This document shows, piece by piece, positions 3,555-16,968 of a stretch of DNA of 64,000 nt. A program made the position numbers and the translations under genes. Below the pieces are notes generated by a model, which saw only the letters and a list, made by a program, of their open reading frames with translations, did no database searches and had not been told where the DNA came from. How positions within the stretch are numbered: the first letter of the stretch is position 1; each line of letters opens with the position of its first letter. This stretch comes from an uncultured Thiothrix sp. Its GTDB lineage: Bacteria; Pseudomonadota; Gammaproteobacteria; Poriferisulfidales; GCA-002705445. The stretch covers positions 67,583-131,582 of the forward strand of contig CACJPG010000001.1 in the NCBI GenBank assembly GCA_902595225.1. The letters run 5' to 3'.

Positions 3555-4565
3555 ATGAAAATTTCTGACAAAGTATCTGTTGTAGCTCCGGCAAGACTCC
3601 ACCTTGGATTTATGGATCTTAATGGTTCACTTGGAAGAAAATTTGGAAGTGTTGGTATGGCTATTGATAGTATTGAAACTGATATAATAGTTTCAAAAAT
3701 ACCTTTAGCCAATCGTTCTGATGTATCTAAAAATAACAAGAGAGCACATGAGTATGCCCAATTAATACTTAAGGCCTATGAGTTGGAAGAGTCTGTTAGT
3801 ATCAAAATTAATAAAAGTATCCCAGAACATTCAGGCTTAGGCTCAGGAACACAACTTGCTTTAGCAGTTGGATCAGCTGTATCAAAATTATTTAATCTAA
3901 ATTTAAGCTTGATGGATATCGGGAAAATTTTAGATAGAGGTAATAGATCTGGTATCGGTATAGGGGCATTTGAACATGGCGGTTTTTTAATTGACGGAGG
4001 CAAGGGTAAATCTGATGATCTTCCTCAAATAACAGTTCGTCATAATTTCCCAGATAATTGGAGAATAGTTTTATTAATTAATCAAAGAGAAAAAGGATTG
4101 CACGGTAAAAAAGAATTCAATGCTTTTAAAACATTAAAACCTTTTCCGATTAATAAAGCAGAAAAGCTGTGTCATCTTGTCAACATGGTAATTTTGCCGA
4201 GTATAGTTGAAAAAAACTTTAGGGACTTCGCTTGTGGAATTGGAACGCTCCAACAGATTGTTGGAACACATTTTGCTCCTATTCAAGGAGGAGTTTACTC
4301 GAACCCAGATATTGCAAGAATAATGAACTTTGTTGAGAACAAAGGTTTTACTGGTATTGGCCAAAGTTCGTGGGGACCTACAGGGTTCATCTTAACTGAT
4401 AGCGATACTTCAGCGCATAACTTAGTTAGAGAAATTAGGAGTAATTTTTTATGCAAAGATTTAACGATTGATATTATTAAAGGAAGAAATACTGGTTCAG
4501 TTTTTAAATCAAATTACAAAAAAAATGAAATTAAACAGATAAACAAAAAAATTAATAAGGAATAA
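3555..4565 (+). CDS. Beta-ribofuranosylaminobenzene 5'-phosphate synthase (GHMP kinase superfamily)
   Basis: APARLHLGFMDLNGSLGRKFGSVGMAI and IPEHSGLGSGTQLALAVG motifs of the beta-RFAP synthase family; adjacent to mtdB/mch/fae. Confidence 0.92.
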   Translation: MKISDKVSVVAPARLHLGFMDLNGSLGRKFGSVGMAIDSIETDIIVSKIPLANRSDVSKNNKRAHEYAQLILKAYELEESVSIKINKSIPEHSGLGSGTQLALAVGSAVSKLFNLNLSLMDIGKILDRGNRSGIGIGAFEHGGFLIDGGKGKSDDLPQITVRHNFPDNWRIVLLINQREKGLHGKKEFNAFKTLKPFPINKAEKLCHLVNMVILPSIVEKNFRDFACGIGTLQQIVGTHFAPIQGGVYSNPDIARIMNFVENKGFTGIGQSSWGPTGFILTDSDTSAHNLVREIRSNFLCKDLTIDIIKGRNTGSVFKSNYKKNEIKQINKKINKE

Positions 4566-4567
4566 AT

Positions 4568-5470
4568 ATGAGCAAACCATTAATTATGCATATGTTAACA
4601 ACTGCAAAAAATTTAAGTCCATTTGATGTAAATATGGCATTTGATGCTGGATGGGATAAGTGTGTGCCTTATACTTCTATAGAAGTAAATGAGGTCGAAG
4701 GTATTGTGCAAGATACTATCTTTTCAAGACCACCTGGATTAAATAAAACGGGTATATTTGTAGGTGGTAGAGATCCACATAAAGCAATTGAAATGCTTAA
4801 CATCTGCAAAAAATCACAAGTTCCGCCTTTCACAGTCTCTGGGTTTGCTGATCCAAGTGGAGCTTTTACAACAGCAGCTGGAATGATAGCCAAAGTAGAG
4901 CAAGCATTGAAAAATAATTACGATACTGATTTCAACAATCTTTCAATTCTAGTTTTTGGTGGAACTGGACCTGTTGGATGTATTGCAGCAGTTCTTGCAG
5001 CAGGTTCTGGTGCTGACGTAAAAATTTTAGGAAGAAAAAAAGAAAAATGTGATGAGATTGCAAGATTTTGCATTGATAATTATCTTGATTCGTCATCTAA
5101 ACTTAAGGGTGCATCAAATGATGAATTTAAAGATTATGTTTCTGAGGTAGACGTTGTTCTAGCAAGTGGTGCTGCAGGTATACAGCTTGTATCTAGCGAA
5201 GATTTAAAAATAGCAAAAAAACTAAAAGTTGCTGCAGATGTAAACGCTGTACCTCCGTCAGGAATAGCAGGTTTAGATGCAATGCAGGACTGTAAAAAGC
5301 TTGAAGACTCAATTTCGGAAGCCATAGGTATAGGAGCTCTAGCAATTGGGCAAGTTAAGTATCAAGCCCAAAGTAAGCTATTAAAAAAAATGGCAACAAG
5401 TGATAAACCTATTTACTTAGACTTTAATGATGCTTTAAATGAAGCTAGAGAGTATGTTTCCTCAAAATAA
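4568..5470 (+). CDS. mtdB: NAD(P)-dependent methylene-tetrahydromethanopterin dehydrogenase
   Basis: MtdB-type N-terminus (MHMLTTAKNLSPFDVNMAFDAGWD), TGIFVGGRD, Rossmann VFGGTGPVGCIAAVLAAGSGADV. Confidence 0.94.
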   Translation: MSKPLIMHMLTTAKNLSPFDVNMAFDAGWDKCVPYTSIEVNEVEGIVQDTIFSRPPGLNKTGIFVGGRDPHKAIEMLNICKKSQVPPFTVSGFADPSGAFTTAAGMIAKVEQALKNNYDTDFNNLSILVFGGTGPVGCIAAVLAAGSGADVKILGRKKEKCDEIARFCIDNYLDSSSKLKGASNDEFKDYVSEVDVVLASGAAGIQLVSSEDLKIAKKLKVAADVNAVPPSGIAGLDAMQDCKKLEDSISEAIGIGALAIGQVKYQAQSKLLKKMATSDKPIYLDFNDALNEAREYVSSK

Positions 5471-6572
5471 TTTAGTATTTATAGGGAATTCACTTGTAAG
5501 CATAAGCCAGTCAGTTAAAAAACTAAATAAAAGAGTTATTAATATAGACTCATTCAATGATACCGATTTAGTTGGGGAAAATTTTATAAACTCTGATCAG
5601 CGAGGATATGTTAATCAAGATGTCCTTTTGGTATTAGAGAAACTCAATCTTAGGAAAAATGATACGTTGATTGTAGTCTCTGGTGAATATGATTCTGATA
5701 AAGATTACTATAATGAACTTAGTGAATTTGGATATATTGCAGGAAACAAGCAATCTACCATACAAGAAATATACAATCATGAAAAACTTTTTTCAAAGTT
5801 ATCTAAAAATAATATTAAATTTCCAAAAAAAATTTCCCCTGATGAGGCTAAGAAATCAAAAAACTTTTTAAAGAAAAACTTTTATTCTTCTGGAGGCTTA
5901 GGCATTCAAAAGAATATAATCCAGAAACAAAAAAAGAAAACAGATTTTTACCAAGCTTATATTGAAGGTGATGTATTTTCAATTATCTTTATTTCAAATA
6001 AAGATAAAAAATTTTCAATAGTAGGAGTAAATAAAATATTTTCAAAAAATACTAATTTATCAGATTTTACATTTTCAGGAGCACAATCAAATGTGTTACT
6101 TGATAAAAAGTATATGAAGAGACTTGAACATATGATTAATTTTTTCGTATCAGAATATGGACTTGTTGGTATTAATGGAATTGATTTTATAATTAAAGAC
6201 GATATTTATTTTCTAGAGATAAACCCAAGGATAACCCAAACATGTTTCATGTATGACGATTTGTTCTTAAATGGCTTTATCGAAGCTCATATTGAAGCAT
6301 GCGCACAAAATAGTATTTCTTTTAATTTAAAAGATCGAGTTATTTCTTATGCTTTCGAGACAATGTTTGCTAAGAATTCCTTTAAATTTAACTTAGATTT
6401 AGATAAATTTAATTTCTTGATGAATATTCCTCATAAAAATACTTTTATTGAAGTTGGTCATCCTATATGTACAATATGTATAAAATCAACTAAGACTGAT
6501 GACTTGCAAATGCTTCTAAAAGAAAAAGTTGATTTTTTTAAAAGAGAACTTAATAACGCAGAGATAGTATAA
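5439..6572 (+). CDS. ATP-grasp protein of H4MPT-linked C1 cluster (Methylobacterium 'orf17'-like)
   Basis: ATP-grasp C-terminal signature GINGIDFIIKDDIYFLEINPRITQT; overlaps the 3' end of mtdB; true start may be Met at 5454. Confidence 0.75.
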   Translation: MKLESMFPQNNLVFIGNSLVSISQSVKKLNKRVINIDSFNDTDLVGENFINSDQRGYVNQDVLLVLEKLNLRKNDTLIVVSGEYDSDKDYYNELSEFGYIAGNKQSTIQEIYNHEKLFSKLSKNNIKFPKKISPDEAKKSKNFLKKNFYSSGGLGIQKNIIQKQKKKTDFYQAYIEGDVFSIIFISNKDKKFSIVGVNKIFSKNTNLSDFTFSGAQSNVLLDKKYMKRLEHMINFFVSEYGLVGINGIDFIIKDDIYFLEINPRITQTCFMYDDLFLNGFIEAHIEACAQNSISFNLKDRVISYAFETMFAKNSFKFNLDLDKFNFLMNIPHKNTFIEVGHPICTICIKSTKTDDLQMLLKEKVDFFKRELNNAEIV

Positions 6573-7538: not shown

Positions 7539-8414
7539 ATGTATTTGATTTTTACTGAGGATGATGGATGGCATACAAATCAGTTAGTTGATGCCTTCAA
7601 TAAAAATACGAAAGATGTTCGTCTAATCAAAATTAATGAAACCTCAATTAGTATTAATGATAACCCAAAAATTTTATATGAAAATTGTGAAATTCCTTTC
7701 AAAGAGATTGATGGTGTTTTCGTAAGAGGCATACCAGGAGGCACTCTTGAGGAAATTTGCTACCATCTTGATATACTTCATTTCCTTGAACTGGAAAAAG
7801 TTACTGTCTACAACAATACTGTTTGCATTGAAAAAAGTGTCGATAAGGTAAGAACGTCATGTATATTAAATGCAAATGGAATAAAAACACCAGAAACATT
7901 TGTTACAACTAATATAAGTCATTTAAAGAACTTCCAAAGTTTGTATGATGAAAACGATCTTGTGTGCAAGCCAATTTTTGGTTCACAAGGTAAGGGGTTA
8001 GAAATCATAAATTCAGATAATCCGCATCCTGATTATGAATCACTTAATAAAGTTTATTATCTTCAGAAATTTATTAGTCATCCAGATAAAAAATTTATTG
8101 ATTGGAGGTTATTTGTTGTAAATAAAAAAGTTATAGCCTCAATGGCGAGAGAAGGGACTTCATGGATTAATAATGTTGCTAGCGGCGCATTATGTAAACC
8201 TTTTAAACCTTCTAAAGAAATGGTAAAACTTGCAGTCAATTCTTCTGACGCTCTTGGAATGTATTATGCTGGTGTAGACATAATGTTAGGACCTGATGGA
8301 TATACAGTTACTGAAGTAAATAGTATTCCTGCATGGAAAGGAATACAGTCTGTCTGCAAGGATATAAATATTGCAGAAATAATGATTAATGATTTTTTAA
8401 AAAAGTGTAATTGA
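7539..8414 (+). CDS. RimK-like ATP-grasp ligase of H4MPT cluster ('orf9'-like)
   Basis: KPIFGSQGKGLEII, DWRLFVVNKKVIASMAREG, GVDIMLGPDGYTVTEVNSIPAWKG: RimK/ATP-grasp signatures. Confidence 0.85.
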   Translation: MYLIFTEDDGWHTNQLVDAFNKNTKDVRLIKINETSISINDNPKILYENCEIPFKEIDGVFVRGIPGGTLEEICYHLDILHFLELEKVTVYNNTVCIEKSVDKVRTSCILNANGIKTPETFVTTNISHLKNFQSLYDENDLVCKPIFGSQGKGLEIINSDNPHPDYESLNKVYYLQKFISHPDKKFIDWRLFVVNKKVIASMAREGTSWINNVASGALCKPFKPSKEMVKLAVNSSDALGMYYAGVDIMLGPDGYTVTEVNSIPAWKGIQSVCKDINIAEIMINDFLKKCN

Positions 8415-9348: not shown

Positions 9349-9873
9349 ATGGCAATAAATAAAGTTTTAGTAGGGGAATGTCTAGTTAACGATAATGACC
9401 CAACAGGAACTATGGCAGAGATTGCTCATATCGATTTATTAATCGGTCCAAGAGGCTCAGCAGTAGAAACAGCATTTTGTAACGGACTTTGTAACAACAA
9501 AGACGGTTTTACATCTCTTTTAGCTGTAGTTGGTCCAAACCTAGTTTGTAAGCCAAATACAATGATGTTCAACAAAGTTACAATCAAAGGCGCAAAACAA
9601 GCTGTCCAAATGTTTGGCCCTGCGCAGAAAGCTGTAGCTATGGCGGTTGCTGATAGCGTTGAAGCCGGAGTAATTCCAAAAGGTGAAGCTGATGACTTAT
9701 ACGTATGTGTTGGCGTATTCATTCATTGGGAAGCTAACAGCGATGAAGCTATTTATGAAAACAACTATAAAGCTACCAAAGGTGCTATTGAAGCAGCTGT
9801 TAAAGGTACGCCTTCAGTTGATGACATGTTAGCTAAAAAAGATGCTACAGATCATCCTTTCCAAGGATTCTAA
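9349..9873 (+). CDS. fae: 5,6,7,8-tetrahydromethanopterin hydro-lyase (formaldehyde-activating enzyme)
   Basis: Fae signatures [70 protein letters not shown]. Confidence 0.97.
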
Positions 9874-9890
9874 GCAATCTTTTGATACAC

Positions 9891-9914
9891 GCGCCAACTC
9901 TTTGAAGTTGGCGC
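9891..9914 (+). terminator. GC-rich hairpin downstream of fae (terminator or 3'-stabiliser)
   Basis: gcgccaact-ctttga-agttggcgc: perfect 9-bp stem, 6-nt loop; the following T-tract is weak. Confidence 0.55.
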
Positions 9915-9958: not shown

Positions 9959-11116
9959 ATGTCCTCGGATGAAAAGAAAATAAATAAAGAAGGTTTAACC
10001 AACCAAGAATTCTCATTTAAATACTCAGTACCGATAGAATCTGTAATATCAGAAACCAAATCTCATAATCAAGCAAATAAGAAACTTCATATCAAAAAAA
10101 ATGGTCAATTACCACTTGATGATGATCAAAAAACAATACTTAAAGCTTACTTTGATTTAGGTCTTCTAATCTCAGAAGAAAATGATATACGAATTTATGA
10201 GGATGTAAGAAAACTTAATTATCTTTTTTGGATACAGGAAAAGTTAAAAAAATTAAATTTTCATTTTGTTGAAGAAAATTCATACAGCGATGAGTCACAC
10301 AAAATTATTACAAAAAATTATATTACAATACCAAAAAAAGAATTAAGTCTACTTGAAATAAAGGGTTTTGATATTAGAAATTTAGAATTATATATTTCGA
10401 TATTACTTCTACAGAAAGGATATGCGTCAAATAACTTTATTTTCTTGCAGAATGTAAATAAATCCTTGCACGAAAGTTTTGAAAAAATCTTATCTTTTTT
10501 TAATATAAATATTAAAAAGCTTGAAATTAATGAAAGTAGCAACTTAATCAGACTTGCTACGTCTAATGACTGCAAAAAAATAAGAAGCATTATTAATAAA
10601 TATCTTGAGGAAATACCTTGCTTAAATGAAAAGTTTTATTCAAAGAGCGTTAATTCTAGTATTACAAAAAAACTTGTTTTTGATTCTGCACATTATATAT
10701 CAGATCACGATGGTAAATGTAAAAATCTTCACGGAGGCAGATATAATATTGAGATTTCATTAAAGGATAGAATTGATCCCATGACTGGTTTTATAATTGA
10801 TTATAGCCTCATAAAAAAAATTACGAAAAATCTTATTATTAATAAGTTTGATCATAAAACTCTAAATCTAACTTGTTCTGAACTTGCCTGGCGTTCTAGC
10901 ACTGAGTTTCTTGCCATCGTAATATGGGAAATTTTAATAGAGTACTTACCAAGCTTAAGTAAAATCAAAATATTTGAAACTGAAACATCTTTTTGCGAAT
11001 TTGAGGGTCAATCACTTGATGAGTACTTGAAAAATGGGCCAAGTGAAATCTTATCTTATTTTAAAAATCTTTCAAGAAACCCATCAAGCAATGAAGACAT
11101 TGGTCATGTCGGATAA
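9959..11116 (+). CDS. Two-domain protein: N-terminal ~220 aa with LAGLIDADG_2-like pattern, C-terminal 6-pyruvoyl-tetrahydropterin synthase/QueD-like domain
   Basis: C-terminus VFDSAHYISDHDGKCKNLHGGRYNIEISL...GFIIDYSLIKK...FDHKTLN..ETETSFCEFEG matches PTPS/QueD layout (HGH replaced by HGG). N-terminus QKTILKAYFDLGLLISEENDIRI...RKLNYLFWIQEKLKKLNF. Confidence 0.75.
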   Translation: MSSDEKKINKEGLTNQEFSFKYSVPIESVISETKSHNQANKKLHIKKNGQLPLDDDQKTILKAYFDLGLLISEENDIRIYEDVRKLNYLFWIQEKLKKLNFHFVEENSYSDESHKIITKNYITIPKKELSLLEIKGFDIRNLELYISILLLQKGYASNNFIFLQNVNKSLHESFEKILSFFNINIKKLEINESSNLIRLATSNDCKKIRSIINKYLEEIPCLNEKFYSKSVNSSITKKLVFDSAHYISDHDGKCKNLHGGRYNIEISLKDRIDPMTGFIIDYSLIKKITKNLIINKFDHKTLNLTCSELAWRSSTEFLAIVIWEILIEYLPSLSKIKIFETETSFCEFEGQSLDEYLKNGPSEILSYFKNLSRNPSSNEDIGHVG

Positions 11117-13053: not shown

Positions 13054-13794
13054 TTAAATCTTATCAGTGCCTTTTTTTACTAATGAAGAAATATAATTAC
13101 TTATAAAATTTGGTAATGTTTGCAATCCCTTCATTATTAAATACATTGGCAATGGAAAAGTAATTTCAAATTTTTTTGAGAACATGCCTCTTTCGATGAT
13201 ATCAGCCGCTTTATTAGAGCTAATAATAAATGGCATAGGAAATTTATTTTTATCAGTTAAAGGAGTTTTCACAAAACCTGGTGTAATTACTTTAACATCT
13301 ATCTTATTTTTTAATTCGATGTGAAGAGATGATGCCAAATTATATAAAGCAGCTTTTGTCATAGAGTAGGGTTGACTATAAGGAAGTCCTTTATAAGCAA
13401 CAAGACTTGAACATATTATTAGTTTTGATTTGTTCGCAGAATTAATCATAAAGCTTCTTGTAACATGTAAAATGTGCATGAATCCCATAATATTCACATT
13501 AATTATATTCTCATAGTCAGAGTAATCATCTGGGCTATATGCAGCTGACATAAAAATTATATTTAAAGAATCTGGATTTGATTCAACTATTTGTCGCGAA
13601 ATACTTAGACATTGATCCTTATCCGATAGATCTAAAGGTAAAACCTCATGATCATTATTCAGCAAGTTATTTAGTTCGTTTAACTTGTCTTCACTTCTTG
13701 AAGACAGTATTAGTTTATAACCCTTATTATCAAGTTTTTTTGCAAGAGCTTTTCCGATACCAGAGCTCGAACCGATAATCCAATATTTATCCAT
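13054..13794 (-). CDS. Short-chain dehydrogenase/reductase
   Basis: GSSSGIGKAL, SSLVAYKGLPYSQPYSMTKAAL; last gene of a tight four-gene operon. Confidence 0.88.
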   Translation of the reverse strand: MDKYWIIGSSSGIGKALAKKLDNKGYKLILSSRSEDKLNELNNLLNNDHEVLPLDLSDKDQCLSISRQIVESNPDSLNIIFMSAAYSPDDYSDYENIINVNIMGFMHILHVTRSFMINSANKSKLIICSSLVAYKGLPYSQPYSMTKAALYNLASSLHIELKNKIDVKVITPGFVKTPLTDKNKFPMPFIISSNKAADIIERGMFSKKFEITFPLPMYLIMKGLQTLPNFISNYISSLVKKGTDKI

Positions 13795-13796
13795 AT

Positions 13797-14966
13797 TTAA
13801 TCTTTTTGAAGTACAAATTGATAAACGTTAGTTCGCTTATTTATAAAGCCAGATGAGCAAGATGTCAGATAGTATTCCCATAATCTTAAAAACTTCTCAT
13901 CAAAATTTAATTTTGAAATAGTTTCAATATTAGATTTAAAATTTTTATGCCAAATATCTAGCGTTTTTGAATACGAATCGCCAAATGAGAATTTATCAAT
14001 TACTTTAAAGCCATTATTTTTTGCATATTTCATAAAAATTTCTTGGGATGGCAACATGCCTCCAGGAAAAATAAATGTTCTTATTGCGTCAGTGCCTTTT
14101 TTATATGAATTAAATAATTTATCATCAATTGTAATAGTCTGAATGACAGCTTTGCCTTTATTAACAAGTAAAGAATTAATTTTTTCAAAAAAAGTATTCC
14201 AATATTCATAGCCTACTGCTTCAAACATTTCAATTGAAACTATGGACTCATATTTTTTGTTAATATTCCTATAATCATCGTATATTATCTCAACATTTTT
14301 ATTGCTCTTATGTAAATTTTTTGAATAATCAAATTGTTTTTTTGAGATTGTGATACTGTCTAGTTTTTCATAATGATTTTTAGAAAAATTTAAGAAACCG
14401 CCCCAACCAGTCCCTATCTCTAAAAGATCTTTATTATTGTTTGTATCTAAAATATCCCTTATTCTTTTGTATTTATTCATTTGTGCTGTATATAAATCTT
14501 GATTATCGTTTTCAAATAAAGCTGATGAATAAGTTAATGATTTATCGAGCCATATTTGATAAAAATCATTGCCAAGGTCATAGTGTGACTCAATATTCTT
14601 TTTGCTACCTGATAGTGTGTTCTTGTTAAAAAAATATTTTAAATTTGAAAAAAAACGAACTAAGGACTCACCAAAAAGAAGTTTTTTCAAATGGTCATCA
14701 TTTATAATGACAAAGGTAAACAAGTTCTTTAGGTTCGATGATGACCAATTACCATTTTTATAATCAGAGGCAAAGCCAACATCTCCATTTTTCATCATAT
14801 TGCTAATTATTTTCCAATTTTTAATATGAATATCTGCAAAAACATCCGTTGTTTTTTTAATCTCGATAACATCATTATCAGGAGTAGTGATAGTAAGCGT
14901 ACCTTTTTTACAATTTTTTAATAAAGATATAAAAATTTTAATTTTTAAATTATTCGCTGCTTTCAT
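13797..14966 (-). CDS. Cyclopropane-fatty-acyl-phospholipid synthase family methyltransferase
   Basis: NIESHYDLGNDFYQIWLDKSLTYSSALF, LLEIGTGWGGF, SIEMFEAVGYEYWNTFF, FIFPGGMLPS. Confidence 0.93.
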   Translation of the reverse strand: MKAANNLKIKIFISLLKNCKKGTLTITTPDNDVIEIKKTTDVFADIHIKNWKIISNMMKNGDVGFASDYKNGNWSSSNLKNLFTFVIINDDHLKKLLFGESLVRFFSNLKYFFNKNTLSGSKKNIESHYDLGNDFYQIWLDKSLTYSSALFENDNQDLYTAQMNKYKRIRDILDTNNNKDLLEIGTGWGGFLNFSKNHYEKLDSITISKKQFDYSKNLHKSNKNVEIIYDDYRNINKKYESIVSIEMFEAVGYEYWNTFFEKINSLLVNKGKAVIQTITIDDKLFNSYKKGTDAIRTFIFPGGMLPSQEIFMKYAKNNGFKVIDKFSFGDSYSKTLDIWHKNFKSNIETISKLNFDEKFLRLWEYYLTSCSSGFINKRTNVYQFVLQKD

Positions 14967-14968
14967 AA

Positions 14969-15715
14969 TTAGGTAATTCTATTAATATTTTGTTTGGGTT
15001 TTTTATAAAACCTAACTTTTTTAAAAAATAATTTAGTAGCTTGGAAATGGATTAGCAGAATTACTCTAAATATTAAAAAAGATGAACTAAAGAAATTATT
15101 CAATACCCACAAACTATTTTTAATCTTTAATTTCTCACCATTAATCGATGTAACTAAAATATTCTTTTCGTTGTTATCAAAATAATCAATATCAAATCTA
15201 ATAAAATCATCTTGATTATCAAATCTAATTTTATAATATCCTTCCCTCGGTAGGAAAGGGGATACGTGAAATAATTTCTCTATGTAATAGTTTTGTTCAG
15301 ATTTACGCAGTTCGTGATTAACAAATTTGATGTAGTAGTGATCTTCTGAAAACGTATTATTTACTTTCAATATAGTACATATATGCTTTTCATCTTTATT
15401 ACAAAAAATAAAGGAAACAGGATTAAAGGCATAGCCTAGAACCCTAGGCATCGTTATTAACTCTATATTATTAATTTTACAATCTTGCTTTTTGTCATTA
15501 ATAACTTCGGCACACCAATTAAGCAGGTTGCTATGGCCATTTGCATAGTCTTTCTCATAAACAGAAAAAATATTAAATTTGTTTAACCCAAAAAACCTGG
15601 ATTTTTCCTTTTCTTCAAAGGGAAATTTAATACTTATATAGTTGCAGCTGTATCTAAAGCTGTTGGCTTTTGGCCAGATCCTTTTATGAAATACCAGTGC
15701 TTTTATTAATTTCAT
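14969..15715 (-). CDS. DUF1365 family protein
   Basis: VFHKRIWPKANSFRYSCNYISI...ITMPRVLGYAFNPVSFIFCNK...HVSPFLPREGYYKI; located between FAD oxidoreductase and CFA synthase genes. Confidence 0.85.
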   Translation of the reverse strand: MKLIKALVFHKRIWPKANSFRYSCNYISIKFPFEEKEKSRFFGLNKFNIFSVYEKDYANGHSNLLNWCAEVINDKKQDCKINNIELITMPRVLGYAFNPVSFIFCNKDEKHICTILKVNNTFSEDHYYIKFVNHELRKSEQNYYIEKLFHVSPFLPREGYYKIRFDNQDDFIRFDIDYFDNNEKNILVTSINGEKLKIKNSLWVLNNFFSSSFLIFRVILLIHFQATKLFFKKVRFYKKPKQNINRIT

Positions 15716-16968
15716 TTAATATCAATTGCTTTAAGTTTTTTAACGGCTTCTATTGAAGATAACACTCCATCTTCGTGGAATCCATACTTATGATAAGCAC
15801 CACAAAAAAAACTTAAATTTCTTCCTTGTAAAGCTGGAATTTTATTTTGAGCCTCTAAAGCTGCGTAATCAAAAATTGGATGTTCTAATTGGTGTGTATT
15901 GTAAATTTTATCTTTATTTATTTTTTCGCCAGGATTTAGTGAGACAAAAATAGGGTATTTTTTATCAATGTTTTGAAGCGAATTCATCCAGTATGTGAGA
16001 ATAGGGAGGTCTTTATCTGTTTTTTTGTAAATCCAGCTTGCCCAATACATCTTATTTTTAGGCATCACCGAGCTATCAGAGTGAAGAACTACACTATTTT
16101 TAGAGTATTTAACATCACGAAGCATATCTTTTTGTTCAATGTCTAAATTATTCCCTATTTTCAAGACCTCGTTAGAATGATTACTAAATATGACGTAATC
16201 ATAGTCAGAAACTCCTTTTTTTGATGAAATTTTAATAGTTTCTCCTGATCTTTCTACACCCAGGACCTCGTTATTTAGTCTAATCTTAGCTTTTAATCGA
16301 TTTTTTAATGCTTCTATATAAGATTTGCTTCCATTTTTAATAACATACCATTGAGGCTGATTTATTAAGCTTAAAAGGCCATGATTTTTCATAAATCTAA
16401 TATAAGACAGGTATGGAAACTGAAGGATTTGACTTGGTGTACAGCTCCATATTGAGCTTCCCATTGGCACAATATAACTTTCTATAAAAAATTTGGAAAA
16501 TTTATTTATTTTTAAGAAATCTGCTAAGCTTTGGTTATTGGTTTTATTAAGACTATTTAGAGTATTCTTTGATAAATTATTGAATCTATTGATATTATAA
16601 AGTAAATTATAATACTTAGGGTTTAATAATCTAGCTTTATTTGCGAAATAGCTATTAAAGTCCTTAAATTTTATTTCAGGATCTCCTGGTTTAGTGCTAG
16701 TAATCGCGAAAGACATATCACTTTGTTCAATATCTACATTTAAATCGCATATCATTTTGTAGAAATTAGGGTAGTTCTTTTTATTAAATACAATAAAGCC
16801 AGTATCAACATTAAAGTTTATAGAATCATTATAATTAATATTTAGTGTTCGAGTATGCCCACCAATGTAATTGTTTTTCTCATATATTGTTAGATCATAT
16901 GTTTTGTGTAATAAATATGCTGCATATAATCCAGAAATGCCAGATCCGACAATCGCTATTTTTTTCAT
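15712..16968 (-). CDS. FAD-dependent amine oxidase/desaturase-like oxidoreductase
   Basis: IAIVGSGISGLYAAYLLHKTYDLTIYEKNNYIGGHTRT dinucleotide-binding motif; DTGFIVFNKKNYPNF; C-terminal FFCGAYHKYGFHEDGVLSSIEAV. Confidence 0.9.
   Translation of the reverse strand: MKKIAIVGSGISGLYAAYLLHKTYDLTIYEKNNYIGGHTRTLNINYNDSINFNVDTGFIVFNKKNYPNFYKMICDLNVDIEQSDMSFAITSTKPGDPEIKFKDFNSYFANKARLLNPKYYNLLYNINRFNNLSKNTLNSLNKTNNQSLADFLKINKFSKFFIESYIVPMGSSIWSCTPSQILQFPYLSYIRFMKNHGLLSLINQPQWYVIKNGSKSYIEALKNRLKAKIRLNNEVLGVERSGETIKISSKKGVSDYDYVIFSNHSNEVLKIGNNLDIEQKDMLRDVKYSKNSVVLHSDSSVMPKNKMYWASWIYKKTDKDLPILTYWMNSLQNIDKKYPIFVSLNPGEKINKDKIYNTHQLEHPIFDYAALEAQNKIPALQGRNLSFFCGAYHKYGFHEDGVLSSIEAVKKLKAIDIK

Follow-up and report, generated by a model that had tools for sequence, protein, structure and literature searches.

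To our knowledge, the domesticated LAGLIDADG proteins described so far are nucleic-acid factors (WhiA, HO, and maturases). WhiA is an accepted case: its LAGLIDADG domain is degenerate, with catalytic residues lost and the DNA-binding surface altered, and an added helix-turn-helix (HTH) domain binds DNA (PMC3781837); an ATP-sensing role has been proposed for it in Mycoplasma (PMC11701221). The fusion protein analyzed here resembles WhiA (DUF199) in a predicted degenerate LAGLIDADG domain at the N-terminus, devoid of the metal-binding/catalytic residues and kept by the host. WhiA, however, is a transcription factor with a C-terminal HTH, whereas the fusion carries a PTPS domain C-terminally and no HTH was found in it by Pfam. 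With the LAGLIDADG homing endonucleases (I-DmoI, PI-SceI, I-SceI, and phage enzymes) the predicted model shares the two-repeat αββαββα fold; unlike them, the fusion lacks the catalytic acids, is mildly acidic, shows no detectable sequence similarity to them, and lies in a metabolic operon.

In the second family concerned, QueD/6-pyruvoyl-tetrahydropterin synthase (COG0720, PF01242), a catalytic Cys, an Asp-His pair, and a pterin-anchoring Glu have established roles. The C-terminal domain of the fusion has the fold and all of these residues in common with QueD, from which it differs by HGG in place of HGH and by an N-terminal half of 230 residues. Three signatures have been published for the family, CxxxHGH for PTPS-I/QueD, CxxxxxHGH for PTPS-II, and ExxHGH for PTPS-III, and in archaea PTPS-III enzymes contribute to the synthesis of H4MPT (PMC5041015). 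A full-text search of the open literature retrieved no paper combining LAGLIDADG with ‘tetrahydropterin synthase’.

The fusion gene and its genomic island

The window, i.e. the whole stretch of DNA that was analyzed, is 64,000 nucleotides long. The fusion gene occupies exactly the ORF of the initial annotation, starts with ATG, and contains no internal stops. It is separated by 85 bases from fae upstream and by 8 bases from a holB-like gene downstream. The features of the island and of the fusion are as follows.

3555–4565, + strand: beta-RFAP synthase family gene (mptG)
4568–5470, + strand: mtdB-like methylene-H4MPT dehydrogenase (Pfam)
5439–6572, + strand: orfY/myfA-like ATP-grasp_3 gene (Pfam, NCBIfam, PMC8141765)
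6573–7532, + strand: mch, methenyl-H4MPT cyclohydrolase (Pfam, NCBIfam)
7539–8414, + strand: orf5/myfB-like RimK-type ligase (Pfam, NCBIfam, PMC8141765)
8422–9267, + strand: orf7-type CitG-like gene (Pfam, synteny)
9349–9873, + strand: fae, formaldehyde-activating enzyme (PF08714)
9959–11116, + strand: fusion protein gene, 385 aa, with degenerate N-terminus, predicted LAGLIDADG-fold domain, and PTPS domain (ORF call, Pfam, AlphaFold2)
9959–10048, + strand: residues 1–30, zinc-finger remnant (C-C-H-C) with the cysteines lost and the GLT.QE(Y/F) helix kept (homologue alignment)
10109–10648, + strand: residues 51–230, predicted nuclease-dead LAGLIDADG-fold domain of two αββαββα repeats (AlphaFold2 with pLDDT mostly >90, Foldseek, active-site columns)
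10121–10333, + strand: repeat 1, residues 55–125, catalytic-acid position G68 (model, motif reading)
10376–10618, + strand: repeat 2, residues 140–220, catalytic-acid position K153 (model, motif reading, hhalign)
10652–11014, + strand: residues 232–352, PTPS/QueD domain with invariant C254, D298-H299, and E340, and with HGH changed to HGG (G260)

Homologues of the fusion were gathered from relatives and from GTDB species genomes. The resulting 57 loci, nearly all encoding full-length proteins, were gamma- or ‘beta’-proteobacterial in 54 cases, and an alignment of 52 homologues was the basis of the family residue counts given below. Members of the family occur in sulphur oxidisers, symbionts, and methylotroph-like lineages within the Gammaproteobacteria; Sedimenticola selenatireducens and Thiorhodococcus are cultured carriers. 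Because full-length homologues are conserved in different gammaproteobacterial orders, the ORF is not a chance one.

The initial annotation had placed the protein next to fae and the H4MPT genes, and the domain searches agreed with this. The position beside fae is also conserved in relatives: the order RFAP synthase, mtdB, ATP-grasp, mch, RimK ligase, CitG-like, fae, and fusion recurs in nearly every locus that extends far enough for the order to be read. The ATP-grasp genes likely correspond to orfY/myfA and orf5/myfB, judged by the names used for the Methylorubrum archaeal-like cluster (PMC8141765). Downstream of the fusion, the larger genomes contain an orf17-type HisA-like gene, an ATP-grasp gene, an mfnF-like hydantoinase-family gene, pabB, and an mfnE-like kinase gene, with mfnB in some. 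The sequence distances of the fusion correlate with those of Mch (r=0.91) and of the MyfB-like RimK-type ligase (r=0.93), which is consistent with long vertical residence in the island, although co-divergence would also be expected from plain vertical descent of a cluster.

Three further observations concern the surroundings. The spacer of 85 nt that separates fae from the fusion gene has a folding energy of -20.8 kcal/mol (z -2.5). At window positions 9891–9914 it contains a perfect inverted repeat of 9 bp (GCGCCAACT...AGTTGGCGC), and it has no T-run; the repeat could be an attenuator or a processing site. On the minus strand, convergent with the H4MPT operon, positions 13054–16968 encode an SDR, a cyclopropane-fatty-acid-synthase-like CMAS, a DUF1365 protein, and a flavin amine oxidoreductase. 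A second fae-family gene is present in the source genome outside the window (G000:C1:207393-207884).

The predicted N-terminal domain

With the 52 homologues as input to AlphaFold2, structures were predicted for the window protein (mean pLDDT 85.5, pTM 0.85, residues 51–230 mostly >90) and for the Sedimenticola selenatireducens protein (mean pLDDT 88.8, pTM 0.86); the two models are not independent tests, because most of their alignment is common to both. Residues 51–220 of the window protein were predicted to form a helix-strand-strand-helix-strand-strand unit that is repeated once, with helices at the end. Foldseek comparison of this model with the PDB gave, apart from PTPS structures, matches to WhiA/DUF199, PI-SceI, the bI3 maturase, I-Tsp061I, an intein, and I-DmoI, at E values of about 1e-4 to 1e-3 and mostly over approximately 175–190 columns. 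The WhiA domain was the best of them (E=7e-5 to 4e-4), and the match to I-DmoI had a TM-score, normalised by the target, of approximately 0.55–0.63. The Sedimenticola selenatireducens model additionally matched I-SceI. All matches of non-PTPS type below E 1e-3 were LAGLIDADG proteins; one further entry scored in this range, the uncharacterised 3jyg, which is PTPS-like in our reading. The best match in the viral library was a 237-aa DNA endonuclease from a Bacillus phage (242 aligned columns). LAGLIDADG endonucleases or viral PTPS proteins accounted for many of the matches after it, and a few weaker ones were otherwise named.

The initial annotation had read the N-terminal region as LAGLIDADG-like, and structure prediction followed by the fold search returned LAGLIDADG and, among PDB matches below E 1e-3, no other non-PTPS domain. 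The peptide stretches on which that reading was built coincide with helices 1 and 2 of repeat 1 (residues 55–66 and 83–95) and with helices 1' and 2' of repeat 2 (142–153 and 168–179). We consider it very likely, judging from the model, that residues 51–230 adopt the LAGLIDADG fold.

The sequence comparisons gave a different result. Residues 1–234 of the window protein had no meaningful Pfam-A match, and scanning the N-terminal half with Pfam, NCBIfam, and PHROGs gave nothing informative. Comparison with PF03161 (LAGLIDADG_2) and other LAGLIDADG models had been proposed as a check in the initial annotation, and no sequence model gave a match: the LAGLIDADG models of Pfam matched none of the 52 homologues even at E<=10, and PF03161 gave no match over its cut-off in 150 proteobacterial genomes and none in the source genome. 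Searching PDB sequences with a profile of the domain (hmmsearch) found no LAGLIDADG chain, only a chance match to uS15 (E 0.37). An hhalign comparison with archaeal LAGLIDADG_3 inteins was insignificant (probability 0.2%), the similarity between repeat 1 and repeat 2 was no better than that of shuffled controls, and no phage or viral relatives were found by sequence. Since these tests were negative, the LAGLIDADG assignment, and with it the proposed homology to LAGLIDADG proteins, rests on the predicted fold.

The possibility exists that the domain resembles LAGLIDADG proteins by convergence on the same αββαββα arrangement. The absence of sequence-level support and the moderate TM-scores (0.5–0.6) would fit this explanation, but we regard it as very improbable: two tandem repeats occur in order, LAGLIDADG proteins are the only matches among non-PTPS PDB folds, the N-terminal half aligns along the length of the phage endonuclease, and the hhalign alignment, weak as it is, has the expected register, with LLLQKGY under LLLGDGT and hence K153 opposite the catalytic Asp.

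The catalytic positions were assigned from the motif reading and from this alignment. Position 68 of repeat 1 is G, N, D, K, R, or Q in the family and acidic in 3/52 members, and position 153 of repeat 2 is V, I, A, K, N, R, Q, or another residue and acidic in none of the 52. The acidic catalytic residues, noted as missing in the initial annotation, are thus absent from nearly the whole family, and the window protein has G68 and K153. These substitutions suggest that the domain no longer cuts DNA. Estimated from the sequence, as a proxy for an electrostatic map, the median net charge is -2 both for the domain (pI 6.1) and for its strands; both are mildly acidic, where a DNA-binding β-saddle would be basic. 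The acidity argues against DNA binding by the domain, which is unlikely on this ground, although it is no proof. Of the two roles first suggested for the domain, nucleic-acid-binding or structural, the structural one fits better.

Preceding this domain, a C-C-H-C zinc finger with the pattern M.C..C...(L)..HL..C(C/S)(G)LT.QEYA.RH is intact in 40/52 homologues. Its CxxC...H...C arrangement and the LT.QEYA.RH stretch are similar to those of Ros/MucR zinc-finger regulators; the matches to PF05443 (ROS_MUCR), however, are weak, being found in 21/52 homologues with a best E of 0.002 and with the scored members below the family cut-off, and the window protein has no finger. The finger cysteines were lost, and the LT.QEY helix kept, in the genus of the window and its near relatives and also in three Thiorhodococcus/Lamprocystis members. 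This loss in two lineages suggests that the zinc finger is dispensable. A zinc finger followed by a LAGLIDADG domain could be the layout of a complete homing endonuclease, and we infer such an origin for the N-terminal half.

The PTPS domain and its possible functions

PF01242 covers residues 235–350 of the window protein (E=3e-27), and 2oba/QueD were the top fold matches, in agreement with the C-terminal PTPS/QueD domain of the initial annotation. The nearest solved sequence is that of Pseudomonas aeruginosa 2oba, and alignment to it assigns C254 as the catalytic Cys, D298-H299 as the Asp-His pair, and E340 as the pterin-anchoring Glu, each conserved in 52/52 homologues. All 52 fusion members have Gly (HGG) where the H...HGH set has its third zinc ligand, whereas HGH was present in 30/30 other PTPS sequences in the retrieved loci. 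The family is nearest to the PTPS-I pattern, yet it fits none of the three published signatures. The fusions of loci L214 and L215 have CENLHGG, with Exx ahead of the HG motif, a pattern like the PTPS-I/III hybrid one but lacking its final His.

The altered zinc ligand could mean that the PTPS domain is not a normal catalyst. It is one of the points in favor of a pterin-sensing transcription regulator, in which DNA would be bound by the finger and the nuclease-dead LAGLIDADG domain, and the PTPS domain would sense pterin and control the C1 island. The weak Ros/MucR resemblance of the finger and the presence of WhiA, itself a regulator, among the closest folds point in the same direction, as do the reports that the degenerate domain of WhiA adds to DNA affinity (PMC3781837) and that WhiA is an ATP sensor (PMC11701221). 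Against these stand the loss of the finger in the clade of the window and in the three Thiorhodococcus/Lamprocystis-type members (which have kept the rest of the protein), the mild acidity of the domain and its strands, the invariance of the catalytic PTPS residues (52/52), and the lack of any HTH detected by Pfam, and we find this explanation unlikely. There is a similarly small chance that a complete, phage-like zinc finger and LAGLIDADG protein was captured and is now a pterin-responsive regulator or an enzyme-regulator, in which the PTPS half senses H4MPT flux and controls the C1 island; if so, it would be a domesticated homing endonuclease acting as a cofactor sensor.

In a sample of 369 gammaproteobacterial genomes, the N-terminal domain was found in 15 (in frames of 382–817 aa), fae in 49, and both in 12. 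The remaining three genomes keep the fusion without fae, so its link to H4MPT is not a strict one. In 20 loci around fae, taken from genomes that have fae but not the fusion, no fusion relatives were found. Loci L048, L060, L063, and L068 have kept the fusion, with fae and the H4MPT genes absent from the genome or the locus, and in L048, L063, and L068 pabB lies directly downstream of it. Such loci are possibly island remnants, or the fusion has a role there in folate synthesis.

It could also be that the fusion is simply the QueD of queuosine synthesis in these organisms and that its place beside fae is incidental. The CxxxHG motif is of PTPS-I/QueD type (PMC5041015), the fusion is the sole PTPS in 9/9 genomes of the window genus having one, and queE adjoins queC in the source genome. 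True QueC, however, was found in 6/11 genomes of the genus, and two without it (97% and 93% complete) retain the fusion. Many larger genomes have other PTPS genes besides the fusion, often one of approximately 176 aa on the same contig; in addition, the window protein scores below the NCBIfam QueD cut-off, HGH is replaced by HGG in all members, and the synteny of the island is conserved. We consider that this explanation has little probability. The paralogue and QueC pattern suggests that the fusion may serve as QueD where genomes are small, while the C1/pterin island explains its retention better. The second PTPS paralogue (L077:15393-15902 and similar loci) is approximately 170–176 aa long and has a normal CxxxHGH, and it too scores below the QueD cut-off. 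A Methylobacterium bullatum match located between queE- and queC-like frames was read as a queuosine QueD and set aside.

Another candidate function is that of a PTPS-III-like enzyme replacing dihydroneopterin aldolase and making 6-hydroxymethyl pterin for H4MPT and folate. The adjacency to pabB in genomes without fae and the location in the H4MPT island elsewhere would be in line with it, and the archaeal PTPS-III enzymes of H4MPT synthesis are a parallel (PMC5041015). Nevertheless, the ExxHGH signature is absent from the fusion family, with Glu at position 255 in 4/52 members and HGG in all, and FolB was found in most of these genomes, so we judge this function quite improbable. Replacement of FolB as a general explanation was likewise rejected, FolB being usually present; for this reason the reaction of the fusion is not an obvious gap filler.

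Proposed role and significance

Taken together, we favor, as the probable explanation, that the fusion is a variant pterin enzyme of the PTPS family that carries a domesticated, structural homing-endonuclease-like domain and serves the C1 island; an enzyme with a structural domain is the most likely mechanism. A pterin-pathway enzyme with a repurposed LAGLIDADG-like domain was also what the initial annotation had proposed, and the fold, the dead site, and the synteny with fae support it as the best reading, its reaction being a prediction. A whole zinc finger and LAGLIDADG homing-endonuclease-like protein would have fused to a PTPS in an ancestor of many H4MPT-using gammaproteobacteria. The LAGLIDADG domain would then have been domesticated, with loss of DNA cutting and probably also of DNA binding, and its present role is most likely structural, or one of protein contact, within the PTPS oligomer. 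In the C-terminal domain, Glu340 would bind the pterin, and Cys254 and Asp298-His299 would act on the pterin side chain at a zinc site that has Gly in place of one of its three His ligands. The fusion would provide the dephospho-H4MPT/methylofuran C1 island with a pterin precursor, or process one for it, and it may double as QueD in small genomes that have no other PTPS.

The fusion is directly testable, since cultured species carry it. If the proposed role is correct, the LAGLIDADG fold would appear here as part of a metabolic enzyme. The fusion also points to an uncharacterised, zinc-site-altered PTPS subfamily in the bacterial H4MPT/methylofuran islands.
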